Of a stretch of DNA of 64,000 nucleotides, positions 3,521 to 40,793 are shown one piece after another; within the stretch, counting starts at the first letter, position 1, and each line of letters begins with the position of its first letter. This DNA comes from Flavimobilis marinus (GTDB lineage Bacteria > Actinomycetota > Actinomycetes > Actinomycetales > Cellulomonadaceae). The notes below the pieces were generated by a model. It ran no database searches, was not told the origin of the DNA, and saw nothing but the letters and a program-made list of their open reading frames with translations. The stretch lies in contig NZ_FONZ01000004.1 of NCBI RefSeq assembly GCF_900113055.1, forward strand, positions 62,001-126,000. Direction: 5' to 3'. Made by a program: the position numbers and the translations under genes.

Positions 3521-4200
3521 GCGGTCACCACCGCTTGCACCCGGTCGCGCGCGCCGAGCTTGGCGAGCACGCGGCCCACGTGGGTCTTGACGGTCGCCTC
3601 GGCGACGAACAGGTCCGTGCCGATCTCGGTGTTCGAGCGACCTCGGGCCATGAGCACGAGGACCTCGCGCTCGCGCTCGGTGAGGCTGCCGAGGCGGGCG
3701 TCGTCGGCCGGGTCGGCGGGGGCGTCGCCCGTGAGCGCGGTGGACATGTGCTCGAGCAGCCGGCGCGTGCTCGACGGCGCGATCACGGCGTCCCCGCGGT
3801 GCACCGTCCGGATCGCGCCCAGCATCTCCTCGGGCGGGGCATCCTTGAGCAGGAAGCCGCTCGCTCCCGCCCGGATGGCCTCGAGCACGTACTCGTCGAG
3901 GTCGAAGGTCGTCAGCACGATGATCCGTGACTGGGCGCCGGCGGCACTGGGGCGGGCCCACGCCTCCGCCAGGCGCGCGGTCGCCGTGAGCCCGTCGGTG
4001 CCGGGCATCCGCACGTCCATGAGCACGACGTCGGGGCGCAGCGGCGTCAGCAGCCGCACGGCCTCGTCGCCGTCCCCGGCCTCGGCCACCACGTGCAGGT
4101 CGGGCTGAGAGTCGATCACCATCCGGAAGCCGGCGCGCACGAGCTGCTGGTCGTCGACCAGGGCCACACGGATCTGGTCAGGTGCGGGGAGGTCGGTCAT
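3487..4200 (-). CDS. NarL/LuxR-family response regulator
   Basis: A 237-residue response regulator. The receiver domain spans roughly residues 10-130, with phosphoacceptor Asp62 in VVLMDVRMPG, and a GerE/LuxR helix-turn-helix lies at about 168-222 (LTEREREVLVLMARGRSNTEIG). The start MTDLPAPDQ at 4200 overlaps the kinase stop as ATGA, so the pair is coupled. Its partner is the DesK-like kinase encoded immediately upstream. Regulons of such actinobacterial pairs are often local ABC exporters; the MacB-like exporter about 2.5 kb away is a candidate only. Confidence 0.93.
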   Translation of the reverse strand: MTDLPAPDQIRVALVDDQQLVRAGFRMVIDSQPDLHVVAEAGDGDEAVRLLTPLRPDVVLMDVRMPGTDGLTATARLAEAWARPSAAGAQSRIIVLTTFDLDEYVLEAIRAGASGFLLKDAPPEEMLGAIRTVHRGDAVIAPSSTRRLLEHMSTALTGDAPADPADDARLGSLTEREREVLVLMARGRSNTEIGTDLFVAEATVKTHVGRVLAKLGARDRVQAVVTAYESGLVRPGS

Positions 4201-5435
4201 CGCTCGCTCCGGTCGGGGAGGGGAAGGGTGAGGCGCACGCGGAACCCGCCGCCGGGGCGCGGGCCGGAGACCAGGGTGCCACCGAACATGGCCGCGCGCT
4301 CCGACATCCCGAGCACGCCGTGCCCGGCCCCGTCCGAGGTCGCAGCGGCGCCGCGGCCGTCGTCGGCGACCTCGAGGACCACGCTCGCCGCGTTCCACTG
4401 CTGCAGCACGGTTACCGCCGGGTCAGGACCGGCGTGCTTGAGGACGTTGGTCAGGGACTCCTGGCACACGCGGTACAGCGCGAGCCCGACGCCGGGCGGC
4501 AGCGGGCGCGCGGTGCCCATGCGGACGAGGGAGACGCGCAGGCCGCTCTCACGCATCTGCTCGAGGAGCTGTTCGATGTCCCCGCTCGCGGGCTGCGGGG
4601 CACGCTCGGGGGACCTCGTCCCGCCCGTGGTCGACCCGCTCGCGCCGTCGGCGTCGTCATCGGTCTGGTCCGTGCGCAGGACGCCGAGGAGTCGCCGCAT
4701 GTCGGCGAGGGCGTCACGCCCGGTCTCGGCGATCGTCCCGAGCGCGTGCGCTGCGGCGTCCGGGTTCGCGGCGGCCGCGTACCTGCCGCCGTCGGCCTGC
4801 GCGATCATCACCGACAGCGAGTGGGCGACGATGTCGTGCATCTCCCGTGCGATGCGGGTGCGCTCCGCCGCGGCGGCGAGGCGCGCGAGCTGCTCGTGCT
4901 CGGTCTCAAGCTGGCGGGCGCGGTCCTCGAGCGCCTGCACGGTGGTCAGCCGGGAGCGGCGCGCGAAGGCGAACGCCCATACGGTGAGCACGAGCATGGT
5001 GCCGAAGAAGGCGTAGCTCACCGCCTCGCCCAGCCCGCCGTTCGACTGACCCGTCACCTGGGCCGAGCCGATCCCGACGCCGAGGAGCGCGCCGAGGAGC
5101 GCGAGGCGCCGGGCCCAGCGCGGGCCGCGGACGGTGACCGAGTGCAGGGCCCAGCAGACGGCGACGATCGCGGGCGTGAGGATGATGTGCGCCATGGGCG
5201 TGAAGGCCGCGGCGATCGCGTAGACGGAGACGGCGGAGGCCACCGGGTTGGTGCGGCGGAAGGCCAGCGGCGCGAGGAGCGCGACCGATGCCACAGCGGC
5301 AGGCAGGGCGCCGAGGTAGATCCCCGCGGTGCTGGCCAGCATGAGCCCGACGAGCAGGGCAACCGTGCCGTCCACGGTCCGCGGGTGCTCGCGCAGCCAT
5401 CGGCGCGTCCCTGTCGTCTCCTCCACGCCGTTCAC
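4197..5435 (-). CDS. two-component sensor histidine kinase (HisKA_3 type)
   Basis: A 412-residue membrane kinase. About five hydrophobic segments occupy residues 20-160, a short coiled region follows, and the dimerisation/phosphoacceptor box RIAREMHDIVAHSLSVM is near residue 195, characteristic of HisKA_3 kinases paired with LuxR-type regulators. The C-terminal ATPase domain shows DDGRGAAATSDGAGHGVLGM. The start is GTG at 5435 with no obvious ribosome site; GTG at 5426 is possible. No extracytoplasmic sensor domain is visible, so it probably senses within the membrane. Confidence 0.9.
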   Translation of the reverse strand: MNGVEETTGTRRWLREHPRTVDGTVALLVGLMLASTAGIYLGALPAAVASVALLAPLAFRRTNPVASAVSVYAIAAAFTPMAHIILTPAIVAVCWALHSVTVRGPRWARRLALLGALLGVGIGSAQVTGQSNGGLGEAVSYAFFGTMLVLTVWAFAFARRSRLTTVQALEDRARQLETEHEQLARLAAAAERTRIAREMHDIVAHSLSVMIAQADGGRYAAAANPDAAAHALGTIAETGRDALADMRRLLGVLRTDQTDDDADGASGSTTGGTRSPERAPQPASGDIEQLLEQMRESGLRVSLVRMGTARPLPPGVGLALYRVCQESLTNVLKHAGPDPAVTVLQQWNAASVVLEVADDGRGAAATSDGAGHGVLGMSERAAMFGGTLVSGPRPGGGFRVRLTLPLPDRSER

Positions 5436-5532
5436 CCTAGGTCGCCGCCCCGGGCCCGCGCGTCATCCCCCGGGACCATTGTGAGGAGGGCGACGTCAGC
5501 CTTGCGCGTCAAGGACGTGCCAAGAGGACGCC

Positions 5533-6234
5533 ATGACCTACCATGGCGACATGACCCATGTGCTCTTGGCAGAAGACGACCCGGCGATCGCCGAACCGTT
5601 GGCGCGTGCGCTCACCCGCGAGGGCTACGACGTCGTGGTCCAGGGCACGGGACAGGGAGCGATCGACAACGTCGGCTCCGCGGACCTGGTCGTGCTCGAC
5701 CTCGGTCTCCCGGACATGGACGGGCTGGACGTCGCCCGGGCGATCCGCAGCCAGGGTCTGACGACGCCGATCCTCGTGCTGACCGCACGGGCGGACGAGG
5801 TGGACCTCGTCGTCGGGCTCGACGCTGGCGCCGACGACTACGTCACCAAGCCGTTCCGGCTCGCTGAGCTCCTGGCCCGGGTGCGCGCGCTGCTGCGCCG
5901 CACGCACGGCGAGGTCGAGGTGGACGAGGAGCTGCGCGCCCAGGACGTGCGCGTCGACGTGGCCGCCCACCGCGCGTTCCAGGGTGAGCGCGAGCTGCAC
6001 CTGACGACCAAGGAGTTCGAGCTGCTGCGCGTGCTCGTGGGCAGCGCCGGGAGCGTCGTCGTGCGCGACACGCTCATGCGCGAAGTGTGGGGCTCGGAGC
6101 TCGTGGGCTCGACCAAGACGCTCGACATGCACGTGTCGTGGCTGCGCCGCAAGCTCGGCGACGACGCAAACGCCCCGCGCTACATCTCGACCGTGCGCGG
6201 CCTCGGCTTCCGGTTCGAGACCGGCGTCGGCTGA
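5533..6234 (+). CDS. OmpR/PhoB-family response regulator
   Basis: A 233-residue regulator with a receiver domain (acidic pair EDD near residue 14-16, phosphoacceptor Asp56 in LVVLDLGLP, conserved Lys in VTKPF) and a winged-helix DNA-binding domain from about 135 onward. AAGAGGA lies 4 nt before the ATG at 5533; the ATG six codons later (MTHVLLAEDD) matches family starts but lacks a site. It is followed after 6 nt by its kinase. The 97-nt gap to the divergent kinase gene contains CCTTG-N5-CAAGG (5500-5514), a possible small operator. Confidence 0.93.
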   Translation: MTYHGDMTHVLLAEDDPAIAEPLARALTREGYDVVVQGTGQGAIDNVGSADLVVLDLGLPDMDGLDVARAIRSQGLTTPILVLTARADEVDLVVGLDAGADDYVTKPFRLAELLARVRALLRRTHGEVEVDEELRAQDVRVDVAAHRAFQGERELHLTTKEFELLRVLVGSAGSVVVRDTLMREVWGSELVGSTKTLDMHVSWLRRKLGDDANAPRYISTVRGLGFRFETGVG

Positions 6235-6240
6235 CCCTCG

Positions 6241-7572
6241 ATGCGTCGCCGGGTGATCCTGGCGACCGTCTCGGCGGTCGCGGTCGCTGTCCTCCTGCTC
6301 GGCTTCCCGCTCGCGTTCCTCGGCGCGCAGCTCGTCAAGAACAACGAGCTGCGCGAGCTCCAGATCCGCGCGCAGAACATCTCTCGCACGATCGAGGGAC
6401 GTCTCACCCGGGACGACCAGGTCACCGTGGAGTCGCTCGAGCCCCACGTCGGCGGGGAGGGGCGGCTGTCGGCGTACATCCAGGTCGTCACGCCCACGGG
6501 TGAGCGCATCACCGCGGGCGAGGAGATCACGGGGCAGACCCAGGAGGTCGCGAACCTGACGGACAGCAACGCGCTCGTCTACGTCCAGGTGTCGCAGTGG
6601 GACCTGTACCTGCGCAGCGCGCAGATCGTCGTGCTGGTGATCGTGGCGTCGGTCGTGGCCGTGGGCGCGGGCATCCTCGTGGCCATCTGGCAGGCGAACC
6701 GGCTGTCCGCGCCGCTGCTGTACCTCGCTGCCTCGGCGGAGCAGCTCGGCTCCGGCCAGGTCCGACCGCACGTCGAGGCGTCGGGCGTGGAGGAGATCGA
6801 CCTCGTCGCCGCGGAGCTCGCGCGGTCCTCGGACCGGATGGCCTCGCGGCTGGCCGTCGAGCGGCAGTTCGCCTCGGACGCCTCGCACCAGCTGCGGACG
6901 CCGCTGACGGCCCTGACCATGCGGATCGAGGAGATGGCCCTGGCCGCGCCGGACAACCCGGAGGTCCAGGAGGAGGCGCGCATCTCGCTCGAGCAGATCG
7001 AACGGCTGGTCGTCGTCGTCGACGACCTCCTCAGCCGGTCGCGGCGCGCCCTCGGCGGCACCAACGAGGCGCTCGTCCTGCTCGACGTCGTCGCGCAGCA
7101 GGCCGAGGAGTGGGGGCCGACGTTCGAGCAGGCCGGCCGCCGGCTGGTGGTCGACATCGACGAGAGCACCCGGGTGCTCGCCTCGCCGGGCGGGCTCGCC
7201 CAGGTGCTCGCGACCCTCATCGAGAACTCGCTCAAGCACGGCGGCGGGACCACGACCGTGCGCTCGCGCGGGGGGACGAGCGGCGCCGTCGTCGTCGAGG
7301 TGGCCGACGAGGGCGACGGCGTGCCCGACGAGCTCGCCCCCCACATCTTCGAGCGCGAGGTCACGTCCGGCGCGGGGACCGGCCTCGGGCTGGCGCTCGC
7401 CCGCGACCTCGCCGCCGCCGACGGCGGGCGCCTCGAGCTCGCCCAGCGCCGCCCCGCGGTGTTCGCGCTGTTCCTCTCGGGCGTCCCGAAGAGCCTCGAC
7501 CCGTCGGTCGTGCTGCCGGTGGGCAGCGTGGTGTCCAGCGGGTGGGGCCGACGACGGCGCCCGCCGGCCTGA
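6241..7572 (+). CDS. HAMP-containing sensor histidine kinase
   Basis: A 443-residue kinase encoded directly after its OmpR-type regulator. There are two transmembrane helices (about 5-28 and 125-148) flanking a small extracytoplasmic sensor of about 95 residues, then HAMP, HisKA with His216 in FASDASHQLRTPL, and a HATPase domain (IENSLKHGG, ADEGDGVP, GTGLGLALARD). The C-terminal tail is arginine-rich. The signal is unknown. It ends 10 nt from the convergent gtrA-like gene, with no room for a conventional terminator. Confidence 0.93.
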   Translation: MRRRVILATVSAVAVAVLLLGFPLAFLGAQLVKNNELRELQIRAQNISRTIEGRLTRDDQVTVESLEPHVGGEGRLSAYIQVVTPTGERITAGEEITGQTQEVANLTDSNALVYVQVSQWDLYLRSAQIVVLVIVASVVAVGAGILVAIWQANRLSAPLLYLAASAEQLGSGQVRPHVEASGVEEIDLVAAELARSSDRMASRLAVERQFASDASHQLRTPLTALTMRIEEMALAAPDNPEVQEEARISLEQIERLVVVVDDLLSRSRRALGGTNEALVLLDVVAQQAEEWGPTFEQAGRRLVVDIDESTRVLASPGGLAQVLATLIENSLKHGGGTTTVRSRGGTSGAVVVEVADEGDGVPDELAPHIFEREVTSGAGTGLGLALARDLAAADGGRLELAQRRPAVFALFLSGVPKSLDPSVVLPVGSVVSSGWGRRRRPPA

Positions 7573-7582
7573 CAGATCCTGC

Positions 7583-8095
7583 TCAGCCGCGCGGTGCGGG
7601 AGCCTGCTCGGCGGGTGCCGTGAAGACCCAGTGGCGGTAGGCGAGGTACCGGAACACCATCCCGAGCACGAGGCCGACGCCGTTCGCGCTGATGTTGTCC
7701 GCGAGGGGCGAGCGCAGGTCCAGCACGTAGTGCGAGAACGCCAGGCAGGCCACGGCGATGCCCATCCCCCCGATGTTCACCACCGCGAAGCCCGCGAGCT
7801 CGCGCACGTGGTTGGCGGTGCGTCGCGCGGCGAAGGTCCAGTACCGGTTGCCGAGCCACGACACGAGGGTCGCGACCGCGACCGAGATCACCTTCGCCGT
7901 CAGCGGCTTGTGCTCGAGGAGGTCGCCCGGGCCGAACCGCAGCAGGTTGAACAGACCGAGGTCGACGACGAACGCGACGGCCCCCACCGACCCGAAGCGC
8001 GCGAGCTCGGCCAGGCGCGCCGCCAGGCGCACGGCCCGCCCGGACGTCGGTGTCGGCCGCTCGCCCTCGAGCGTCGGGGGTGCGCTGCTGGTCAT
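7583..8095 (-). CDS. GtrA family membrane protein
   Basis: A 170-residue protein with four predicted helices beginning near residue 32 (LARFGSVGAVAFVVDLGLFNLLRF), and the conserved FAARRTANHVRELAGFAVVNIGG region. GtrA proteins help move or present polyprenyl-phosphate-linked sugars for cell-surface glycosylation. A DPM-like glycosyltransferase at 13 kb is a plausible functional companion. The ATG at 8095 has no ribosome site but lies exactly 6 nt after a TACCCT -10, so a leaderless mRNA is likely. It diverges from purK. Confidence 0.9.
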   Translation of the reverse strand: MTSSAPPTLEGERPTPTSGRAVRLAARLAELARFGSVGAVAFVVDLGLFNLLRFGPGDLLEHKPLTAKVISVAVATLVSWLGNRYWTFAARRTANHVRELAGFAVVNIGGMGIAVACLAFSHYVLDLRSPLADNISANGVGLVLGMVFRYLAYRHWVFTAPAEQAPAPRG

Positions 8096-8101
8096 GCACC
8101 G

Positions 8102-8107
8102 AGGGTA
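8102..8107 (-). promoter_or_regulatory. -10 element of leaderless gtrA-like gene
   Basis: TACCCT on the minus strand, followed by 6 nt and the ATG at 8095. It faces away from the purK -10 only 15 bp to the right. Confidence 0.6.
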
Positions 8108-8122
8108 GCGCCGGGAAGCGTC

Positions 8123-8128
8123 TACCCT
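8123..8128 (+). promoter_or_regulatory. -10 element of leaderless purK
   Basis: TACCCT followed by 8 nt and GTG at 8137. No ribosome binding site is present, so initiation at the mRNA 5' end is inferred. Confidence 0.6.
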
Positions 8129-8136
8129 GGGTGCCC

Positions 8137-9357
8137 GTGGGAGAACTCGTGGTGGCAGTGGTCGGTGGCGGACAGCTCGCGCGCATGATGGCGCCAGCCG
8201 CAGCGGAGCTGGGCGTGACGCTCCGCGTGCTCGTCGAGGGCGCGGGGGCGTCCGCGGGGCAGGTGGTCGTCGACGCCCCGCACGGTGCGTCCGCCGACGC
8301 CGCGGCTGTGTCCGCCGTCGCGCTGGGCGACGCCGAGCGCCGGCCCGCGGACGTGCTCACGTTCGAGCACGAGCACGTCCCGCACGCGTTGCTGCACCAG
8401 GTCTCCGACGCCGGTGTGCCCGTGCGCCCCGGGCCGCACGCGCTCGAGGCGGCCCAGGACAAGATCGTCATGCGTCGCCGGCTCACCGAGCTCGGCGTGG
8501 CCTGCCCGGCGTGGGCGGCGCTGCCCCGCGACCCCGAGGCGGCGCGCGCGGCGCTGGACGCGTTCGTCGCCGCGCACGGCGGCGCGGCCGTCGTGAAGAC
8601 CGCGCGGGGTGGCTACGACGGCAAGGGTGTGCGGGTGGTGCGGGGGAGCGCCGACGTGGGCGAGTGGATCGCCTCGGCCGCCCTCGACGGGCCGGCCCTG
8701 CTCGTCGAGGAGAAGGTGCCGTTCGTGCGCGAGCTCGCCGCGGTGGTCGCACGGCGGCCCTCCGGCGAGGTCGCCGCCTACCCGGTCGTGGAGTCCGTGC
8801 AGCGCGACGGCGTCTGCGCCGAGGTGCTCGCTCCCGCGCCCGGCCTGGACCCCGCGCTGGCCGCGCACGCCCAGGCGGTCGCCGAGCAGATCGCGACGGC
8901 GCTGGACCTCACCGGTGTGCTCGCCGTCGAGCTGTTCGAGGTCGACGGCGCCGTGCTCGTCAATGAGCTCGCCATGCGACCGCACAACTCGGGGCACTGG
9001 ACCATCACCGGAGCGGTCACGAGCCAGTTCGCCCAGCACCTGCGTGCGGTGCTCGACCTGCCGCTCGGTTCGACCTCCCCGGTGGCACGGTGGACCGTCA
9101 TGGTGAACGTCCTCGGGTCGCGGCTCACGGCGCTCACCGACGCCCTGCCCGACGTGCTGGCCGACCCCGCCGTCCAGGTCAACCTGTACGGCAAGGAGAT
9201 CCGCCCGGGGCGCAAGCTCGGGCACGTCACCGTGAGCGGCAGCGACCTGGCCGAGGTCCGCGCCCGGGCCAACCGTGCCGCCGCGCTGCTGCGGGGCGAG
9301 GACGCCGACGACGGGGTAGCAGCACCGACGGCAGACGCCACGAGGAGGAACGCATGA
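8137..9357 (+). CDS. purK: 5-(carboxyamino)imidazole ribonucleotide synthase (PurK)
   Basis: ATP-grasp enzyme of 406 residues that makes N5-CAIR from AIR, bicarbonate and ATP in purine synthesis. The N-terminal GGGQLARMM motif, the ATP-grasp core ([22 protein letters not shown]) and the metal/ATP site [17 protein letters not shown] are all visible. GTG at 8137 is preferred because it sits 8 nt after a -10; GTG at 8131 would be only 2 nt from it. The stop overlaps purE by ATGA, so the pathway pair is coupled. Confidence 0.95.
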
Positions 9358-31818: not shown

Positions 31819-33123
31819 TCAGCCGAGCTGGTTGGTGATCTTCGAGATGCCGTTGGCCCAGGCATCCTCGGGGCTGACACCGTTGACCTCGACGGACAGC
31901 AGCGCCTGGGTGAGCGCGTTCTTGGCGACGCCGTCACCCACGCCCAGGATCTGGGTCGGGGCGGACTGGGCAGACGCGGAGAAGATCTCGCCGGTCGGGG
32001 CGTCGTTGAAGTACTCGTCGGTGGAGTCGGCGACGTCGTCGAACGCCTCGGTGTTGGACGGGAAGTTGCCGCCGACCTCGAACACCTTGGCCTGCTGCTC
32101 GGCGTCGGTCAGCCACGCGATGAGCTTGGCCGCCTCTTCCTTGTTCTTCGAGGCCTCGGGGATGCCGAGGTAGGCGCCGCCCCAGTTGCCGCCCTGGCCG
32201 CCCGGGAGCTCGGTGATGTTCCACTGGCCGGAGCCGGCGTCACCGGCCTTGCCCTTGATGTAGCCGATCATCCAGGACGGGCAGGCGATGGTCGCGAACG
32301 TGCCGGAGCCGAAGCCCGCGTCCCAGCTCGGGTCCTTGAACTGCTCGAGCTTCGCCGTGAGGCCCGACTGCCCGGCGGCCGCGGACTTCATGAACGCGTC
32401 CTTGACGGCGGCGTTGTTCTCGACGACGAGCTCGCCCGCGGCGTTGTAGTAGATCTCCGACTCGGTGGAGACGATGGCGTTGTAGAGCCCGCCCGCGGAG
32501 TCGAAGAACGCGCTGCCCTCGGGCGCGTTCGCCTTGTACTCCTCGGCGAGCGCGATCACGTCGTCCCAGGAGCCGAGGCGCTGCTTGAGCTCCTCGGGGT
32601 CGGAGGGCAGACCAGCGGCGTCGTACAGGTCGGTGCGGTAGCACAGGCCCATCGGGCCGATGTCGGTGCCCAGGCCGAGGACCTTGCCGTCGGTGGTCGT
32701 GGCGGCGTCCGCCTTCCAGTCGACGTAGTCGCCGACGCGGTCCGCGGCGACGGTCTGGGACAGGTCCGTCCAGAGGTCGGCCTGGTTCGTGACGACGTCG
32801 GCGATGCGCGCGACCTCGATGCCCTGGATGTCGGCGGTGCCGGATCCCGAGTTCAGCTTGGTCTGCAGCGCGGGCCAGTACTTGTCCTCACCCTGGGTGG
32901 ACTCGTACTGGATCGTGATGCCCTCGTTCTCGGCCTCGTACTGGTCGAACAGGCCCGCCTCGTCGAGCCCGAAGGTGCCGAAGAGCGACACCGTCAGGAC
33001 CGTCTCACCGTTCGCGCCCGTGGTCGGGTCGCTGGCCTCGGACGAACCCGAGCAGGCGGTCAACGTCAGGGCGCCCGCCATGATGACGGCGGTCGCTCCT
33101 GCGGATCTACGTGCTGTGAACAT
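31819..33123 (-). CDS. extracellular sugar-binding lipoprotein (CUT1 / CebE-like)
   Basis: A 434-residue solute-binding protein. The signal peptide carries a lipobox LTLTAC with the lipidated Cys near residue 24, followed by a Ser/Gly linker. The mature part has SBP_bac_1 features (VSLFGTFGLDEAGLFDQYEAEN, GTFATIACPSWMIGYIKG, GAYLGIPEASKNKEEAAKLIAWL). GAGGAGGAACG precedes the ATG at 33123. With the two permeases and the intracellular GH1 it matches the Streptomyces cebEFG-bglC layout, so cellobiose or cello-oligosaccharide is the likely ligand by inference. Confidence 0.93.
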   Translation of the reverse strand: MFTARRSAGATAVIMAGALTLTACSGSSEASDPTTGANGETVLTVSLFGTFGLDEAGLFDQYEAENEGITIQYESTQGEDKYWPALQTKLNSGSGTADIQGIEVARIADVVTNQADLWTDLSQTVAADRVGDYVDWKADAATTTDGKVLGLGTDIGPMGLCYRTDLYDAAGLPSDPEELKQRLGSWDDVIALAEEYKANAPEGSAFFDSAGGLYNAIVSTESEIYYNAAGELVVENNAAVKDAFMKSAAAGQSGLTAKLEQFKDPSWDAGFGSGTFATIACPSWMIGYIKGKAGDAGSGQWNITELPGGQGGNWGGAYLGIPEASKNKEEAAKLIAWLTDAEQQAKVFEVGGNFPSNTEAFDDVADSTDEYFNDAPTGEIFSASAQSAPTQILGVGDGVAKNALTQALLSVEVNGVSPEDAWANGISKITNQLG

Positions 33124-33263
33124 CGTTCCTCCTCGCGGCCCGGGGGCCGGCTGGCTCGCAGGATCGGTCGACATCGAGCGATCCCCACCGGTCCGCTCTG
33201 ACCGGTGTGCCCCACCCGGCAGCCGGTGCTGGGTGGGTTGTCGACGCGGGGTCGACAGGTGAT

Positions 33264-33293
33264 GAACGCTGAGAAAGCGCTTTCATTCCGTTC
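33264..33293 (-). promoter_or_regulatory. LacI-family operator for the beta-glucoside operon
   Basis: A perfect 12-bp dyad GAAAGCGCTTTC (33273-33284) is nested inside outer arms GAACG (33264-33268) and CGTTC (33289-33293) with exactly the same centre. The GCGC core is shared with CebR/CelR sites (TGGGAGCGCTCCCA), but the flanks differ. It lies over the predicted transcription start. Confidence 0.75.
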
Positions 33294-33296
33294 ACG

Positions 33297-33326
33297 ACTC
33301 TGCGTCATCTCGTCCGGCTCTGTCAA
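33297..33326 (-). promoter_or_regulatory. promoter of the beta-glucoside operon
   Basis: On the minus strand a consensus -35 TTGACA (33321-33326) is followed after 18 nt by CAGAGT (33297-33302). Transcription would start near 33290, inside the dyad operator. The leader to the ATG at 33123 is about 165 nt. Confidence 0.5.
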
Positions 33327-33468
33327 GAGGCGTCCGTTCTGCGGAGGAGGGGACAGCCGTCGCCGACGACGCGCACGGGCGTGAGCGGGTACCTCCAGCG
33401 CGGGCGCGCGCCATGCCTAGCGCCGGTGCCGCGCGGCTCCGGGCGCGCCCGGGAAGAGCCGGCCTGGC
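33327..33468. other. non-coding gap between lacI-type gene and operon promoter
   Basis: GC-rich spacer. The perfect 14-bp palindrome CCGGGCGCGCCCGG (33439-33452) just after the regulator stop is a plausible terminator. Nothing else is supportable. Confidence 0.5.
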
Positions 33469-34491
33469 TCAGGCGGAGTCGCGCACCACGAGCTCGGTCG
33501 CGAGCGTCACCGACGTCACGGGCAGGCCGTCGAGGGCGTCCAGCAGCATCCGGGTCATCTGCCGCCCCATGGCCTCGAGCGGCTGCCGGACGGTGGTGAG
33601 CGGGGGGTGGGCCTGTGCCGCGAGCGGGACGTCGTCGAACCCGACGACCGCGACGTCGTCGGGCACGCTGCGGCCGGCCTCGCGCAGGGCGCGCAGGGCG
33701 CCGAGCGCCATCAGGTCGTTCGCGGCGAAGATGCCGTCGATGCCGGGGTCGCGAGCGAGCAGCCCGCGTGCGACCTCATAGCCGCTGTCGGGGGAGAAGT
33801 CCCCGGCGACCACGAGCTCGTCGGACAGGGGTAGGCCATGCTCGGCGAGCTCGGCGCGGAAGCCGAGCAGGCGGTCGCCGGAGGCCGTCATGTCCGGCGG
33901 GCCGGCGATCGTCGCGACGTGGCGGCAGCCGCGCTCGATCAGGACGTGCGCGGCCGAGCGTCCGCCTGCGACGTTGTCGGGGGACACGAACGGCAGCGCG
34001 GGACGTCGGCCCGGAGGTCGACCCGCGAGCACCACGGGGATCCCCAGCCGCTCGAGCCGGCCGGGCAGGTGCTCGTTCGCGTGCACCGACAGGAACATCG
34101 CGCCGCCGAGGTGCCCGCCCGCGGCGTACTCCTCGAACCGCGCGCGGTCGTCGTCGGTCGACACGATCGCGAACATCAGCTGGCGGCGGTGGTCGGAGGC
34201 GGCCGCCTGTGCGCCCCGCAGCACCCCGGCGAAGAACGGGTCGGCGAAGAACCGCTCCCGGGTCTCGGAGACCACGAACGCGATCGCGTCGCTGCGCCCG
34301 CCGGCGAGCTCACGGGCGGCCTGGCGGGCGACGTAGGAGAGCTCGGTCGCGGCGTCCCGCACGGCCTGCTGGGCGCGCTCGCTGACCTTGCTCGACCCCG
34401 CCAGGACCCGGCTCGCGGTGGCGCGGGACACCCCGGCGCGCGCGGCGACGTCGTCGAGCGTCGCGGCGTGCGTGCGTGCGGGGCGCACCAT
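33469..34491 (-). CDS. LacI-family transcriptional regulator (CebR-like)
   Basis: A 340-residue repressor. The N-terminal helix-turn-helix is TLDDVAARAGVSRATASRVLAGSSKVSERAQQAVRDAATEL (about 11-51), the hinge YVARQAARELAGGRS follows, and a periplasmic-binding-protein-like effector domain fills the rest. It ends 345 nt upstream of the binding-protein gene in the same orientation, with a dyad operator in between, so it very likely represses that operon. The start is at 34491 with a GGGACGAGA site; TACTGT in the upstream gap is a possible -10. Confidence 0.94.
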   Translation of the reverse strand: MVRPARTHAATLDDVAARAGVSRATASRVLAGSSKVSERAQQAVRDAATELSYVARQAARELAGGRSDAIAFVVSETRERFFADPFFAGVLRGAQAAASDHRRQLMFAIVSTDDDRARFEEYAAGGHLGGAMFLSVHANEHLPGRLERLGIPVVLAGRPPGRRPALPFVSPDNVAGGRSAAHVLIERGCRHVATIAGPPDMTASGDRLLGFRAELAEHGLPLSDELVVAGDFSPDSGYEVARGLLARDPGIDGIFAANDLMALGALRALREAGRSVPDDVAVVGFDDVPLAAQAHPPLTTVRQPLEAMGRQMTRMLLDALDGLPVTSVTLATELVVRDSA

Positions 34492-34607
34492 GTCTCGTCC
34501 CTTTCCCAGCGCCCGCCCGGACCGGGAGGGTTCGGCACACAGTATGCCCGCCCGGCCCGGCGGGGTGTCGGACGCGCCCGCCCGCCGTCGCGGCCCGGTG
34601 CCGAGCG

Positions 34608-36044
34608 TCAGCCGACGATCGGCGAGCCCTCCGGCAGCCGGATGAGTCGCTGCCGCTCGCGCAGCGCGAGCGCGGTGCCGAGCGTGACCGGCCCCAGCCG
34701 ACCCGCCAGCATCAGCATGATGATGATGCCTTGGTGCCACGGCGCGAGCTCCGCGGTGATGCCGGTGGACAGACCGACGGTCGCGAACGCGGACACGACC
34801 TCGAACAGCACCTCGTCCGAGGTGAACGGCGACGTGCTGGTGATCGTGATCGCCGCCACCGCGATGGTCGCCATGCTCAGGAGCACCACTGCGAGGGCCT
34901 GGCGCTGCACGGCGGGGGCGAGCCGTCGGCCGAACAGCACCGAGTCCGGGTCGCCGCGGAGCTCGGCCCACATGACGACGAACAGGACCATGAAGGTGGT
35001 GACCTTGATGCCGCCCGCGGTGCTGCCGCTGCCGCCGCCGATGAACATCAGGACGTCCGTGCCGAGCCACGTGCCGTTGTTCATGGCGCCCGTGTCCACG
35101 GAGTTGAAGCCGGCGGTCCGCGGCATCACGCCCTGGAAGAACCCCGCCAGGATCTTGCCGCGCGCGTCGAGGGGGCCGAGCGTGGCGGGGTTGGTCCACT
35201 CGGCGATCGTCACGAAGGCGCCCCCGACGACGAGGAGGACGGCGCTCGCGGCGAGGGTGATCTTGGTGTGCAGGCTCCAGCTCTTCGGCCGGCGCCGCGA
35301 GCGGGTGAGCTCGAGGATGACGGGGAACCCGATCCCGCCGACCACGACGGCGACGGCGATCGGCACGCAGATCCACGGGTCGGTCGCGAAGCTCGAGAGG
35401 CTGTCGCTGAACAGCGCGAAGCCAGCGTTGTTGAAGGCGGACACCGCGTGGAACAGGCCGAGCCACAGTGCACGGAGCGGCTCTTCGCCGTAGGACACGA
35501 CGTAGCGGCCGGCCAGGACGAGCGTCGTGGCCCCCTCGACCACCGCAGTCACGATCCCGATGCCGACGAGGGTCGTCCGGACGTCGCCAAGACCGACGCT
35601 GCGGGTCGCGGACGCGCTGACCATCCGGGTCTGGAGGTTCAGCCTCCGCGACAGGAGCAGGCCGAGCAGGGAGGCGAGGGTCATCACACCGAACCCGCCG
35701 ACCTGGATCAGCGCCATGATCACGACCTGGCCGAACGTCGTCCACTGTGTCGCGGTGTCGAGGACCGTCAGGCCCGTCACGCACACGGCCGACGTCGCAG
35801 TGAACACAGCCTCGAGGATCGTGGGCCGGTGCGCGGTGGTGCTGGCCGCAGGAAGGAGCAGGAGGGTCGCCCCGAGGACGACGGCGACGACGAAGCCTGC
35901 GGCGACGATCTGCCCGGGCCTGCGGCGGGCTCCCGGCCGGTACGTCTGCCCGCGTCCGCCCGGTCGCGGTGGGGCGACGGGAGTGCGGGTGGACAGGAAG
36001 GGCGCGGTGCGCAGGCGCAGCAGCAGGGGTGACGCGGCGGACAT
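34608..36044 (-). CDS. TrkH/KtrB-family potassium uptake channel subunit
   Basis: A 478-residue membrane protein. After a 45-residue basic N-terminus come eight main helices with the four selectivity-filter loops visible: AVCVTGLTVLD, AFNNAGFALF, MPRTAGFNSVD and GSGSTAGGIKVTT. It forms the K+-translocating dimer; the usual cytoplasmic NAD/ATP-binding partner (TrkA/KtrA) is not encoded nearby. The ATG at 36044 has GGAG 8 nt upstream. It lies directly downstream of a KdpE-type regulator, with a direct repeat in the intergenic region. Confidence 0.92.
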   Translation of the reverse strand: MSAASPLLLRLRTAPFLSTRTPVAPPRPGGRGQTYRPGARRRPGQIVAAGFVVAVVLGATLLLLPAASTTAHRPTILEAVFTATSAVCVTGLTVLDTATQWTTFGQVVIMALIQVGGFGVMTLASLLGLLLSRRLNLQTRMVSASATRSVGLGDVRTTLVGIGIVTAVVEGATTLVLAGRYVVSYGEEPLRALWLGLFHAVSAFNNAGFALFSDSLSSFATDPWICVPIAVAVVVGGIGFPVILELTRSRRRPKSWSLHTKITLAASAVLLVVGGAFVTIAEWTNPATLGPLDARGKILAGFFQGVMPRTAGFNSVDTGAMNNGTWLGTDVLMFIGGGSGSTAGGIKVTTFMVLFVVMWAELRGDPDSVLFGRRLAPAVQRQALAVVLLSMATIAVAAITITSTSPFTSDEVLFEVVSAFATVGLSTGITAELAPWHQGIIIMLMLAGRLGPVTLGTALALRERQRLIRLPEGSPIVG

Positions 36045-36100
36045 CGGGGTGGCTCCAGGACGGGTCCCGGTCCCGGGGTCGGGGCGGGCAACGAGTCGCC

Positions 36101-36106
36101 ACGCTA
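36101..36106 (-). promoter_or_regulatory. -10 element of the trkH promoter
   Basis: TAGCGT on the minus strand, about 57 nt upstream of the ATG. It lies 47 nt downstream of the CCGTNAAGG direct repeat. Confidence 0.45.
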
Positions 36107-36153
36107 GGCGTCGCGGACTCGCCGTCGGGCCGAAAAGGTCCCCCGGGCGAAGA

Positions 36154-36173
36154 CCTTGACGGTTCCTTAACGG
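36154..36173 (-). promoter_or_regulatory. 11-nt-period direct repeat, candidate KdpE box
   Basis: On the coding strand CCGTTAAGG (36165-36173) and CCGTCAAGG (36154-36162) repeat with an 11-nt step, the spacing expected for an OmpR-family dimer bound head-to-tail. It overlaps the kdpE-type stop codon and sits at about -60 to -80 relative to the predicted trkH start, an activator position. Confidence 0.5.
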
Positions 36174-36931
36174 TCGTCGAAGAGGTAGCCGCGCCCCGGC
36201 ATCGTGATGAGGTGGCGAGGGGCCGCGGGGTCGTCCTCGAGCTTGCGGCGCAGCTGCGCGGCGTACACCCGCAGGTAGTTCGTCTCCGTCCGGTAGGCCG
36301 GGCCCCACACGTCGTGCAGGAGCTGCTCGCGGCCCACGAGGTGCCCGCGGTGCCGCACCAGGATCTCCAGCAGGGACCACTCCGTCGGCGTGAGCCGCAC
36401 CTCGACCCCGTCGCGGTGCACACGCTTGCGCGCGAGGTCGATCGTGAGGGCGCCGGCGCGGACGGGCACGGCGTCCGTGCCGGGGGTCGCACGCCGGACC
36501 GCGGCCCGGAGCCGGGCCAGGAGCTCCTCGGACCCGAACGGCTTGGTGATGAAGTCGTCGGCGCCCGCGTCCAGCGCCGCGACCTTGTCGGGCTCGTGCC
36601 AGCGGGCGGACAGCACCACGACCGGGGTCGCGGCCAGCGCGCGCAGACGCGGGATGACGGTGAGCCCGTCGGCGTCCGGCAGCCCGAGGTCGAGCAGGAT
36701 GACGTCGACCGGCGCGCGGGCGGCCTCGAGCGCCTCGGCGGCGGTCGTCGCGGTCCGCACGTCCCAGCCGTGGGTGCGCAGGTTGATCGTCACGGCCCCG
36801 AGGAGACTCGCGTCGTCGTCGACCACGAGGACGCTCGGCGCGACCACGGCGGACGCCTCCCGCCCGGCGGCGTCCGGTCCGCTGTGGTCCGCTCCGCCGG
36901 CACCCGCGCCGAGGTCGGCCCGGGCGCTCAT
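36167..36931 (-). CDS. kdpE: KdpE-like OmpR-family response regulator
   Basis: A 254-residue regulator. The receiver domain starts near residue 33 (VLVVDDDASLLGAVTINLRTHGWDV) with phosphoacceptor Asp in VILLDLGLPDADGL, and the winged helix ends in EDDPAAPRHLITMPGRGYLFDD. The KdpE-type GLPDADGL and LSARWHEPDKVAALDAGADDFITKPFG blocks are well conserved. Its ATG overlaps the kinase stop. In most bacteria KdpE activates kdpFABC; here the adjacent transporter is TrkH instead. Confidence 0.9.
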   Translation of the reverse strand: MSARADLGAGAGGADHSGPDAAGREASAVVAPSVLVVDDDASLLGAVTINLRTHGWDVRTATTAAEALEAARAPVDVILLDLGLPDADGLTVIPRLRALAATPVVVLSARWHEPDKVAALDAGADDFITKPFGSEELLARLRAAVRRATPGTDAVPVRAGALTIDLARKRVHRDGVEVRLTPTEWSLLEILVRHRGHLVGREQLLHDVWGPAYRTETNYLRVYAAQLRRKLEDDPAAPRHLITMPGRGYLFDDR

Positions 36932-38325
36932 CGTGCGTCCGCCCGGGGCACGCGCACGACGGCGGTCAGGCCGCCGCCCTCGGTGTCGCGCAGCGAGACC
37001 TCCGCGTCGATCGCCTCCGCGAGGCCGCGCACCACGGCGAGCCCCAGCCCCATGCCGGCCGGGTGGTCGGCGCCTGCCCCGAGCCGCTCGAACGCCTGAA
37101 AGACGCGCTCGCGGTCCGCGGGTGCGATGCCGGGTCCGTCGTCGACGACGGTGACGACGAGCGCGTCGTCGCCGGCGCGTGCCGCGACGAGGGGGCGCGC
37201 TCCGGGACCCGCGTGCCGCGCGGCGTTGCTCGCGAGGTTGGCCACGACGCGCTCGAGCAGCACGGCGTCGGTCCACGCGAGCGGCAGGGACTCGGGCAGG
37301 TCCAGCTGCACGCGGTCGGCGAGGCCGTCGAGCGCGAGCGGGAGGATCTCGTCGAGGCTCACCGGCACCAGCTGGGCGCGCACCGCGCCGGCCCGCAGGC
37401 GGGAGAGGTCGAGCAGGTTGCCCACGAGGCGCTCGAGGCGCCCGGTCGACACCTCGACGGTCCGGGTGAGGGCCACCCGGTCCTCGGGGGCGAGCAGGTG
37501 GTCGTGGCGCAGGCCGTCGACCGCGGCGCGGATCGCCGCTAGCGGGGTGCGCAGGTCGTGGGACGCGGTGGTGAGGATCGCCGTGCGGGTGGCGTCGGCC
37601 TGCTCGAGCTCGAGCGCGCGGGCCGCCCGCGCGCGCAGCCGGCGGCCCTCGAGGACGAGCGATGCCTGGGCCGTGAAGCGGTCGAGCAGCCGAGCGTCAC
37701 CCAGCCCGGTGGGGCCGGTGACGCGGATGCGCAGCCGCCCGGCGACCGCCGACCACGTCGAGCCGTCGGCGGGGCCCGGGTGCTCGTGCACGGTCACCCA
37801 GGTGTCCGTCGCGACGTCGCGCTCCTCGACCCGGACGCCGTGCCCCGGTGCGTGCCGCGCGAGGACGGCCGCGACGTCGGCGGGTGCGTCGCCCCCGTCG
37901 AGGACGGCGCGCGACAGGTCGGCGAGCAGCTCGGCCTCCGCCCGGGCGCGCCGGGCCTGGCCCGAGCGTCGCTCGGCGACGTCGACGACCGAGGCCACCG
38001 CGACCGCGACGAGCACGAACACGACGAGCGCCAGCGCGTCCTCGCCGTCCGCGACGACGAGCTCGCGCGTGGGCTCGGTGAAGAAGTAGTTCAGCAGGGA
38101 GGAGGCGAGCAGCGCGGCGGCGAGCGAGGGCAGGAGGCCGCCGACGATCGCCGTGGCGACGACGAGCGTGAAGAAGAACATCAGGTCGCTCGCGAGCGAG
38201 AGGTTGTCGCGCTCGAGCAGCAGGACGCCGGTCAACGCCGGCGGACCGAGGACGGCCAGGGCCCACCCGCCGGCGGTGCGGGCACGGGACAGCCCGTGGT
38301 CGCGCCCATGGTCGGGTCGGGTCAT
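36928..38325 (-). CDS. short KdpD-like sensor histidine kinase (DUF4118-HisKA-HATPase)
   Basis: A 465-residue kinase that corresponds only to the C-terminal half of KdpD. The DUF4118 four-helix membrane region runs from about residue 22 to 120, then a GAF-like segment, HisKA (TTASHDLRTPLAAIRAAVDGL) and HATPase (LASNAARHAG, DDGPGIAPADRERVFQAFER, GMGLGLAVVRGL). The roughly 400-residue cytoplasmic KdpD-specific and USP domains of E. coli KdpD are absent. ACGAGGAG lies before the ATG, so this is a genuine start rather than a truncation by frameshift. Confidence 0.88.
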   Translation of the reverse strand: MTRPDHGRDHGLSRARTAGGWALAVLGPPALTGVLLLERDNLSLASDLMFFFTLVVATAIVGGLLPSLAAALLASSLLNYFFTEPTRELVVADGEDALALVVFVLVAVAVASVVDVAERRSGQARRARAEAELLADLSRAVLDGGDAPADVAAVLARHAPGHGVRVEERDVATDTWVTVHEHPGPADGSTWSAVAGRLRIRVTGPTGLGDARLLDRFTAQASLVLEGRRLRARAARALELEQADATRTAILTTASHDLRTPLAAIRAAVDGLRHDHLLAPEDRVALTRTVEVSTGRLERLVGNLLDLSRLRAGAVRAQLVPVSLDEILPLALDGLADRVQLDLPESLPLAWTDAVLLERVVANLASNAARHAGPGARPLVAARAGDDALVVTVVDDGPGIAPADRERVFQAFERLGAGADHPAGMGLGLAVVRGLAEAIDAEVSLRDTEGGGLTAVVRVPRADAR

Positions 38326-38370
38326 GACGCTCCTCGTCGTGCACGGGCCGGGCACGACAGCCCTGGTGAC

Positions 38371-38396
38371 GGTCGCGCGGCGGCCACCGCGCGACC
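38371..38396. promoter_or_regulatory. 10-bp perfect inverted repeat in divergent intergenic region
   Basis: GGTCGCGCGG (38371-38380), loop of 6 and CCGCGCGACC (38387-38396). It lies between two divergent genes, so it is not a terminator, and it covers the -35 region of the rightward promoter. Confidence 0.6.
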
Positions 38397-38400
38397 AATC

Positions 38401-38406
38401 TACGCT
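38401..38406 (+). promoter_or_regulatory. -10 element of leaderless GT4 gene
   Basis: TACGCT, then 6 nt, then GTG at 38413, with no ribosome site. Confidence 0.6.
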
Positions 38407-38412
38407 GGGCGC

Positions 38413-39546
38413 GTGAAGATCCTCGTGGTGACGACGTGGTTCCCTGGCGCCCACGACCCGGCGACGGGAGCGTTCGTGGCCAAGGACGTGCTCGCGCTCG
38501 CGGCCGAGAACGACGTGCGGGTGCTCCACCTCGTCGCACCGCGGCTGCACGACGGCGGGCCCGAGCGCACGGAGCACGGCGGGGTGCCGGTCCGACGCCT
38601 CGTCATGCACCCGGGCCGGCCGGCGCACCTCGCGCGCGCCCACGCCGCCGTCGCGGCGGAGAGCGGCTGGGCCGACGTCGTGCACACGATGGCGTTCTCG
38701 ACGCTGCTGCCGTTCCTGGGTCGCGCGCGGCCAGACCGCCCGTGGCTGCACACCGAGCACTGGCAGGGTGTGACGTCGCGGCGCCACCTGGCTCTCCCGC
38801 TGCGTCTCGCGATGCCGGTCCTGGAGCGCCTCCTGCTGCGTCCCGACGTCGTCACGGCCGTCTCCGAGTACGCGACGGCGCCCATCCGGGCTCTGCGCGG
38901 CTCCCGGCCGACCGCCGTCGTGCCGTGCATCGCCGCGACGCCCGCCGTGCCGCCCGCGCGCCGCGACCGCGACGGCGACCGCGACGCCACGCTGCGGCTG
39001 GTCGCGGTCGGGTTCCTCAACCCCATGAAGGATCCCTGCGTCGCCGTCCGCACGGTGGCCGAGCTCGCGGCGCGCGGCGTCGACGTCCACCTCACCTGGG
39101 TCGGCGACGGGCCGCTGCGCGCCGAGACCGAGGCCCTGGCGCGCGAGCTGGACGTGCACGAGCGGCTCACCATCACCGGCTCCGTCGCGCCCGCCGACGT
39201 CGGCGCCCACCTCGCAGCGGCCGACCTGTTCTTCCTGCCCACGCGCCGCGAGACCTTCGGCGTCGCGATCGCCGAGGCCATCGCGCACGGGCGACCCGTC
39301 GTGGTCGGCGCGACGGGGGCGCAGCGCGAGTACGTCGCCCCGCGCGTGGGTGCGCTCGTCGAAGTCCAGGACCCCGCCGCGTACGCCGACGCGATCCTCC
39401 GGGTGGACGCGGACACGCGCGACCTGACCGCCGCCGACGTCGCCGGGAGCATCGGCGGGGCCTTCGCCGCGGAACGCGTGGTCGCGGGCTACGAGCGCGC
39501 CTACCGCGAAGCCGTCGCGGGGCCCTCGCGCCCGGGGCGGTCATGA
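38413..39546 (+). CDS. GT4-family glycosyltransferase
   Basis: A 377-residue GT-B enzyme. VKILVVTTWFPGAHDPATGAFVAKDVLALA starts the acceptor half, HTEHWQGVTSRRHLALPLRLAMPVLERLLLRPDVVTAVSEY is typical GT4, and the donor half shows VAVGFLNPMKDPCVAVRT, WVGDGPLR and FLPTRRETFGVAIAEAIAHGRPVVVGATGAQREYV. The ETFGVAIAEA segment gives the donor-binding glutamates. It is probably translated from a leaderless mRNA and overlaps the next gene by ATGA. Confidence 0.92.
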   Translation: MKILVVTTWFPGAHDPATGAFVAKDVLALAAENDVRVLHLVAPRLHDGGPERTEHGGVPVRRLVMHPGRPAHLARAHAAVAAESGWADVVHTMAFSTLLPFLGRARPDRPWLHTEHWQGVTSRRHLALPLRLAMPVLERLLLRPDVVTAVSEYATAPIRALRGSRPTAVVPCIAATPAVPPARRDRDGDRDATLRLVAVGFLNPMKDPCVAVRTVAELAARGVDVHLTWVGDGPLRAETEALARELDVHERLTITGSVAPADVGAHLAAADLFFLPTRRETFGVAIAEAIAHGRPVVVGATGAQREYVAPRVGALVEVQDPAAYADAILRVDADTRDLTAADVAGSIGGAFAAERVVAGYERAYREAVAGPSRPGRS

Positions 39547-40793
39547 GCCGCCGCGGCGGCGAGCGGGACGAGGGTTCGTCGCCGTCGGGCGCGGGCCGCG
39601 CGCAGGAGGTGTCGCCGGCCGGCACCGAGCCCGTCGTCGACGTCGTCGTCGCCGTGCACACCACGGCGCGACCGATCGCCCGTGCCGTCGGCTCGGTGCT
39701 CGCCACGGCGGCACCGGTGCGCATCACCGTCGTGTGCCACCACGTCGCCCCGGCCGAGGTGGACGCGCTGCTGGACGACGTCCGGGCGCGGCTGCGCGAC
39801 ACCCCGCACCAGCTCCGGCTCCTCGCCCTCGACGACGGCACGCGCAGCCCGTCGGGCCCCTTCAATCTCGGGCTCGACCGGACGACCGCGCCGTTCGTCG
39901 CGATCATGGGCTCGGACGACGCCCTGGAGCCTGGCGCGGTGGACTCGTGGCTGGCCCGCCAGCGCGAGCACGACGCGGACGCCGTGGTGCCGCGCCTGCG
40001 GCACGGGCGGGTCGAGGGGGCGGCACTCGTGCGCACGGCCGCCGGCGCGCTGGCGCGGCTCGGACTGGTCGGCTCCGACGCGGTGCCCACGCCCCCGGCA
40101 CGTCCGGGCCGACGCCGCGTGTCGGGCGTCCGCGACCGCCTCGCCTACCGCAGCGCCCCCCTCGGGCTCGTGCGCCGGGCGACCCTCGAGGCGCTCGAGC
40201 TGCGGATGGTGCCCGGGCTCGGCGTCGGCGAGGATGTGGCGTTCTCGACGCGGCTGTGGCTCGAGTCGCGGGTGGTGCTCGACCGCCACGGGCCCGCGTA
40301 CCTGATCGGCCCCGACGCCGCGGACCGCGTGACGTTCGCGCACAAGCCCGCCGCGGCCGAGCTCGCGTGCGTCACGGACCTCGTCGCCCAGCCGTGGTTC
40401 GTCCGGCTGCCAGTGGTGGCACGGCGCGGGGTGGCGGTGAAGCTCGCGCGGATCCACGTGTGCGGGGCCGTGCACAACCGGCCCGACCCGGCGCGCTGGA
40501 CGTCCGCCGACCTCGACGCGTTCGTCGCGACCGTGACGGCGCTCGACGCAGCCGCACCCGGGTACGCGGTCGTGCTGTCCCGCGCGGACCGGGACCTGCT
40601 CGACGCGCTCGCCCAGCATGGAGGGGCGGCGCGGGCGCCCGGCGCCGCGGCGACGGAGCTCCTCGCGCTGTCCCGGCGCCGCCGTCGCCACGGCACACCG
40701 GTCACCCTGCTCCCGCGTGACCCGCGGCAGGTGCTCGCCCGGGAGGCGCCGTTGCGCGTCATGGTGGCGTCGGTGCTGGCGCGTCTCGGCTGA
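39543..40793 (+). CDS. GT2-family glycosyltransferase, paralogue of the 19.6 kb gene
   Basis: A 416-residue GT-A-like enzyme with a 30-residue disordered N-terminus. VVDVVVAVHTTARPIARAVGSVLAT, FNLGLDRTTAPFVAIMGSDDALEPGAV and RSAPLGLVRRATLEALELRM with GEDVAFSTRLWL align block by block with the GT2 at 19593-20723, including the helical C-terminus (ALLPRDPRQVLAREAPLR region). Both copies directly follow another glycan gene in an overlapping arrangement. The ATG overlaps the GT4 stop. Confidence 0.87.
   Translation: MSRRGGERDEGSSPSGAGRAQEVSPAGTEPVVDVVVAVHTTARPIARAVGSVLATAAPVRITVVCHHVAPAEVDALLDDVRARLRDTPHQLRLLALDDGTRSPSGPFNLGLDRTTAPFVAIMGSDDALEPGAVDSWLARQREHDADAVVPRLRHGRVEGAALVRTAAGALARLGLVGSDAVPTPPARPGRRRVSGVRDRLAYRSAPLGLVRRATLEALELRMVPGLGVGEDVAFSTRLWLESRVVLDRHGPAYLIGPDAADRVTFAHKPAAAELACVTDLVAQPWFVRLPVVARRGVAVKLARIHVCGAVHNRPDPARWTSADLDAFVATVTALDAAAPGYAVVLSRADRDLLDALAQHGGAARAPGAAATELLALSRRRRRHGTPVTLLPRDPRQVLAREAPLRVMVASVLARLG

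Follow-up and report, generated by a model that had tools for sequence, protein, structure and literature searches.

A probable pump-less Kdp regulon in Flavimobilis marinus: a short KdpD and a KdpE-like regulator that probably drive an adjacent ktrB

Among the closest described counterparts of the locus is the KdpD/KdpE-kdpFABC system of E. coli and other bacteria, with which it shares a DUF4118-HisKA-HATPase kinase, an OmpR-type KdpE and K+ import as the proposed target, but from which it differs in having no KdpA and no N-terminal serine kinase/Usp part, the proposed target here being ktrB. The sensory roles of the two halves of KdpD are a matter of long-standing debate. In the available text of Silberberg et al. 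(2024, PMC11018627), the N-terminal domain of KdpD is shown to act as an atypical serine kinase on Ser162 of KdpB, and K+ sensing is placed in the TM/GAF domains; the remark of the initial annotation that the missing half is thought to sense K+ or bind nucleotides is, as regards K+, at odds with this assignment. The survey in that text was confined to species in which a Kdp pump is annotated; it also described short KdpD/Usp chains that lack the kinase half, and split systems in which a KdpD/Usp chain accompanies a TM/GAF/DHpCA chain. The short kinase analyzed here has the make-up of that histidine-kinase chain, whereas the serine-kinase chain and the Kdp pump of the split systems have no counterpart, KdpA and PF02702 being absent. 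According to the available text of PMC2714519, an E. coli KdpD derivative missing the N-terminal region together with the first two TM segments remains responsive to K+ limitation, and truncated KdpDs respond to K+ limitation but cannot repress once K+ is higher. A leakier switch would accordingly be expected at the present locus.

The E. coli KdpE site consists of two 6-bp direct half-sites 5 bp apart (PMC3264566, available text) and has the same 11-nt period as the repeat described below, the box sequence here being unlike TTTATA/TTTACA of E. coli. The comparison with KtrAB is similarly divided: the transporter aligns to solved KtrB, but no ktrA lies alongside and a two-component system is found upstream. 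The available text of PMC10117811 describes KdpDE as not previously analyzed in a Streptomyces model. Among the matches listed in a search of titles and abstract openings, no paper described control of ktrB or trkH by a KdpDE pair in actinomycetes, most subscription papers being outside the coverage of the search.

Table 1. Positions of the features of the locus in the window and of a second short pair in relative G005
Feature	Position	Strand	Basis
N-terminally short KdpD-type sensor kinase, 465 aa	36928-38325	-	translation, Pfam, tree position among full-length KdpDs
DUF4118 membrane domain of kinase, residues 21-127	37945-38265	-	Pfam
HisKA domain of kinase with ASHDLRTPL, residues 247-313	37387-37587	-	Pfam, translation
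HATPase_c domain of kinase, residues 353-461	36943-37269	-	Pfam
KdpE-like response regulator, 254 aa	36167-36931	-	translation, Pfam, NCBIfam, solved structures
Putative KdpE box CCGTTAAGGAACCGTCAAGG, 11-nt direct repeat	36154-36173	-	matrix from kdpA-upstream regions of relatives
Candidate -10 TAGCGT of ktrB, 47 nt after box	36101-36106	-	position; same hexamer ~48 nt after box in Sanguibacter suaedae
KtrB/TrkH-type K+ uptake protein, 478 aa	34608-36044	-	translation, Pfam, solved-structure match
G005 (L065) ktrB	5536-6879	-	
G005 (L065) kinase	7251-8273	+	
G005 (L065) regulator	8273-8944	+	

The window, i.e., the whole 64 kb stretch of DNA that was analyzed, carries the locus on its minus strand (Table 1), where transcription runs in the order kinase, regulator, K+ uptake gene. 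KdpD and KdpE homologues had been annotated upstream of a K+ transporter gene and not of kdpFABC, and this gene order was confirmed. The ATG of the regulator overlaps the kinase stop codon (ATGA). A divergent open frame, glycosyltransferase-like by eye, lies just upstream of the kinase start. A palindrome, GGTCGCGCGG-TGGCCG-CCGCGCGACC, was observed at 38371-38396 (minus strand), between TAGATT and the kinase start; of four relatives compared, it was present only in the near-identical G003. No riboswitch before ktrB was found with Rfam within 33000-40500; the sole match, to Guanidine-III at E 0.83 (20.1 of 36 bits), lies outside this interval and was set aside as a ktrB riboswitch for that reason.

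The kinase had been described as lacking the whole N-terminal KdpD/Usp half and keeping DUF4118, HisKA and HATPase, a description that held in full. DUF4118 was matched at 4.6e-24 and both HisKA and HATPase_c were found (Pfam); PF02702 was absent from the protein at E values up to 0.1, and no Usp domain precedes the membrane part, just 20 residues standing before DUF4118. The NCBIfam KdpD equivalog model gave 130.7 bits against a cut-off of 1123, matching with its C-terminal part only. The region between membrane and kinase parts, at the position of GAF, is present and alignable to full-length KdpDs; a profile search with it matched one chain only, an adenylate cyclase at a weak E of 0.11, which we take to be a GAF protein. 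The kinase falls inside the full-length KdpDs in a midpoint-rooted tree of joined kinase and regulator sequences, in line with a shared ancestry with the C-terminal halves of KdpDs.

The regulator combines Response_reg and Trans_reg_C (Pfam), i.e., a receiver and an OmpR-type DNA-binding domain. KdpE was its best NCBIfam model (210.4 bits, below the cut-off of 325) and its best solved match (4kfc, E 1.5e-56). The recognition-helix string YLRVYxAQLRRKLE was found in 8/8 short and 25/26 full rows, and the receiver Asp and Lys motifs are present at all eight short loci. The window encodes another OmpR-type regulator at 5560-6219 (41% identical).

The annotation of the neighboring gene as trkH stands at the level of family, the transporter matching TrkH in Pfam and scoring 315.7 with NCBIfam TIGR00933, slightly below the cut-off of 331.15. 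Its closer identity was revised: TrkH is the family name, and the best solved match was KtrB (E 7.5e-94, aligned over residues 40-476), so the transporter is called KtrB-like here. The pore-loop glycines were judged by eye. A second KtrB, 46% identical to that of the window, is encoded on C7 with a TrkA_N gene immediately downstream; this gene is one of four TrkA_N matches in the genome, none of which is on the window's contig.

The source genome (2.9 Mb, 11 contigs, 99.84% complete) was checked for kdpFABC and a full-length KdpD, as had been suggested with the initial annotation, by searching for KdpA and the KdpD N-terminal domain (PF02702); neither gave a match genome-wide, and the complete kdpFABC-kdpDE locus elsewhere that would have counted against the original proposal was not found. 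The single DUF4118 match in the whole genome is this kinase. A diadenylate cyclase domain is present.

The joint absence of pump and N-terminal domain was followed in relatives. Strong PF02702 matches (~300 bits or more) were found in 42/43 KdpA-bearing and 0/56 KdpA-lacking genomes among 99 related genomes, whose relatedness means that p-values from this and the following tables overstate. The KdpA-bearing exception is G004. A 26.2-bit PF02702 match in G057, which has no KdpA, was just over the cut-off and was counted absent; the tally of matches over the cut-off is 43. In a class-level sample (n = 197), PF02702 was found in 91/93 genomes with KdpA above 100 bits and in 12/104 without, or, with any KdpA over the cut-off, in 93/96 and 10/101. 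A strict coupling thus holds for strong matches in the 99 related genomes and fails at class level (12/104), the association across the class being strong but short of absolute. The control genome, Deinobacterium chartae, has PF02702 and no KdpA. The actinomycete genomes with PF02702 and no KdpA above 100 bits are G119, G137, G154, G167, G170, G190, G196, G227, G247, G259, G284 and G285; these may reflect further substrates of the KdpD serine kinase or, alternatively, assemblies that are incomplete. Loss of the pump removes KdpB, the substrate of the serine kinase, and would thereby explain the joint loss of the N-terminal half. The strong link between PF02702 and KdpA puts the tandem-kinase model to an evolutionary test, which a survey of pump-bearing species alone cannot provide.

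The kinase-KdpE-ktrB module, with ktrB downstream in the same direction, was found in G003, G053, G037, Sanguibacter suaedae, Actinotalea sp. K2 and A. solisilvae, and with ktrB convergent in G012; together with the window (G000) these make eight short-kinase/ktrB loci, of which G003 is near-identical to the window and therefore not independent. KdpA is absent from all eight genomes, an 18.3-bit sub-threshold match in S. suaedae falling inside its ktrB and being counted absent. PF02702 is absent genome-wide in G000, G003, G012, G037 and G053, and around the locus, the part checked, in the other three; the locus stretches of the seven relatives contain no matches to the KdpD N-terminal domain, KdpA or KdpB. 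The histidine and ATP-binding boxes are intact by eye in 7/8 short kinases. The frame of the A. solisilvae kinase (L170:5001-6376) is broken before the ATP-binding domain, through gene decay or assembly error. In the kinases of G037 and G012 the middle region that links DUF4118 to HisKA is missing as well.

The tree was built from 41 joined kinase and regulator rows with a midpoint root, the A. solisilvae row having a wrong-frame tail. Seven of the eight short loci form one clade (100/100). G012 stands apart as sister of G036 (100/99), a genome of the same genus with a full locus. The full-length KdpDs of G016 and G090 branch outside both short lineages; with a root on the side of the other short kinases, where the midpoint puts it, the short forms would therefore seem to have arisen by loss on at least two occasions. 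By this comparison the N-terminal half looks to have been lost twice separately, both times in genomes without KdpA. Such natural KdpDs, without both the serine-kinase/Usp half and KdpA in two lineages, and in G012 with a full-length sister in G036, turn the question of domain function into a comparison of variants.

The initial annotation had pointed to an 11-nt-period direct repeat, CCGTNAAGG, over the kdpE stop. The repeat is real: CCGTTAAGG-AA-CCGTCAAGG overlaps the regulator stop codon at 36167-36169, and the same direct repeat occurs upstream of kdpA in relatives. The pattern CGTYARGRNNNCGTYARGR has two occurrences in the 2.9 Mb genome, one of them here, and the reversed-pattern control none; the second occurrence was set aside as coding sequence by eye. 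Regions preceding kdpA, the expected position of kdpF, were collected from relatives, covering 36 of 45 kdpA places. At most four mismatches to the window repeat were found in 23/36 of these regions against 0.7% of 720 resampled sequences. In a motif-free count of 6-mers, CGTCAA ranked first, occurring in 23/36 regions against 2.8 expected. Spacings between CGTCA cores upstream of kdpA were 11 nt (34 pairs), 32 nt (33), 21 nt (18) and 43 nt (14), with ~0.04 pairs expected per spacing.

A box matrix was seeded with the half-site of the originally annotated repeat and built from 44 sites in 23 of the 36 kdpA-upstream regions. A site of at least 14 bits was found in 30/36 regions, 23 of the 36 being the training set, and a second site 32 nt upstream in 21 of those 30. 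Upstream of kdpA two box pairs 32 nt apart thus form a four-half-site array (0, 11, 32, 43); the window's ktrB has no such array. With the matrix from other genomes, the ktrB site of the window ranked first in 64 kb at 28.0 bits, the next site scoring 15.3. A box precedes ktrB in all eight short-KdpD/KdpE loci of the lineage beside ktrB, at 21.1-28.2 bits (G000 and G003 28.0, G053 28.2, G037 23.9, G012 24.5, S. suaedae 27.8, the two Actinotalea loci 21.1 and 23.3). It was the best site in each of six relatives' loci scanned whole, the runner-up scoring at most 8.7 bits. In Kdp systems of this family the box can serve as a concrete marker of the regulon.

The ktrB genes were split by identity to the window protein into ktrB-2 and the other kind, ktrB-1, a division that is blurred near 48-49%. 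Sites of at least 12 bits were found upstream of 13/37 ktrB-2 genes scanned and of 0/21 ktrB-1 genes; in a resampled background (n = 740), 99% of regions fell below 11.8 bits and the maximum was 15.2. The regions of G051 and G023 are common to kdp and ktrB and were in both training and ktrB sets; without both, 11/35 ktrB-2 regions pass 12 bits. The remaining 24/37 ktrB-2 upstream regions have no site of at least 12 bits, including those of G050, where ktrB adjoins kdpFABCDE, and G005, where the neighbor of ktrB is a short kinase from another clade and the best box scores only 11.5 bits. No box was found before the kinase in the regions scanned, and there is thus no sign of autoregulation.

The repeat had also been placed at an activator distance from a TAGCGT -10 of trkH. 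The hexamer itself is confirmed: its first base lies 47 nt past the repeat, with the ktrB ATG a further 62 nt on; the distance is not that usual upstream of kdpA, where TAG[AG][AC]C lies 26-27 nt downstream of the site in 21/30 regions, and no -35 was established. In G012 and G036, TAGACC follows the ktrB box at 26 nt, as upstream of kdpA. Elsewhere the -10-like hexamer after the ktrB box is TAGCGT at 47 nt (G000, G003), GATAGT at 47 nt (G053) and TAGCGT at ~48 nt (S. suaedae), and no clear -10 was recognized after the box in G037 and the Actinotalea loci. The shift of ~21 nt corresponds to two turns of the helix and would leave the regulator on the same DNA face.

Taken together, the locus is probably a pump-less Kdp regulon in which a short KdpD and a KdpE-like regulator drive ktrB. 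That a simplified Kdp sensor-regulator controls the adjacent K+ importer, as originally proposed, is supported by comparison of sequences: the box is common with regions upstream of kdpA, the module is conserved, and KdpA and PF02702 are missing. The same proposal had called the system rewired, for which retained appears the better word. In four related genomes (G036, G050, G051, G023) a ktrB of the window's kind stands beside a kdpAB-kdpDE locus, in G036 with its own box, so ktrB probably belonged to the regulon before the pump was lost and has outlasted it. In the proposed mechanism, KdpD would have lost the PF02702 and Usp half while keeping the DUF4118 sensor, the GAF-position region and the histidine kinase. 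Low K+ or a related ionic stress would lead to autophosphorylation of the kinase at ASHDLRTPL, and the phosphoryl group would pass to the regulator aspartate. The regulator would then bind the 11-nt repeat over its own stop codon and activate ktrB from the TAGCGT promoter, and KtrB would import K+, perhaps with a KtrA from a separate locus. From these comparisons we infer the signal, the phosphotransfer step, binding and activation, the KtrA partner and the reason for the N-terminal loss.

The module may be real and KdpE-like binding may control ktrB, yet the signal could be osmotic pressure, Na+, pH or envelope state instead of K+. Half of KdpD is gone, the G037 and G012 kinases have in addition lost the region between DUF4118 and HisKA, and no study of such a pair was among the matches listed; on the other side, what follows the box in the chosen sets examined is a K+ importer (kdpFABC, ktrB), and N-terminally trimmed E. 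coli KdpD still answers K+ limitation in the available text of PMC2714519. A signal other than K+ is considered unlikely. Far less probable is a decaying remnant, in which deletion of kdpFABC and the KdpD N-terminus has left a kdpDE that regulates nothing, ktrB being expressed constitutively or by read-through. The loss of kdpFABC together with the KdpD N-terminus, a box position unlike that of kdpA-upstream promoters and the broken frame in A. solisilvae would fit such decay, but the catalytic boxes of the other seven kinases and the receiver motifs at all eight loci are intact, and gene order and box are kept across a deep clade. That the repeat is a chance occurrence or the site of another OmpR-type regulator (MtrA- or PhoP-like) is hardly credible, because, even though OmpR-family sites in general are direct repeats of ~11 nt and the window encodes a further regulator of this type, the same half-site, spacing and strand recur upstream of kdpA in 30/36 regions and at none of the 21 ktrB genes of the other kind.

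Beyond the probable pump-less regulon of ktrB, seven other short DUF4118 kinases were recovered as a separate clade (100/97). Like the pair in the window, those in actinomycetes beside KimA-like or Kup genes combine a short kinase and a KdpE-like regulator with an adjoining K+ importer, but their kinases belong to this separate clade and their transporters are unrelated. Pairs of this clade were observed at L086:4168-6192, L082:7613-9565, L084:7616-9538 and 3585-5444, and L081:7846-10077. They adjoin AA_permease_2 permeases in four loci, one of which also has a Kup-type gene; the one AA_permease_2 neighbor compared with solved structures matched KimA (6s3k, E 1.3e-122). At the other short-kinase loci L083, L085, L088 and L089, no K+ importer was recognized by eye among the predicted neighbors. 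The short pairs beside KimA-like and Kup importers suggest a portable K+ regulator. The wider proposal has in our judgment an even chance of being right: the KdpD membrane-kinase half with KdpE would be a portable K+ regulator that unrelated importers (KtrB, KimA-like, Kup) have repeatedly acquired, the serine kinase being a KdpFABC-specific add-on discarded independently more than once with loss of the pump. In G005 a full kdp locus was observed together with a separate short DUF4118-type pair (L065, Table 1) that is divergent from a ktrB of the window's kind.
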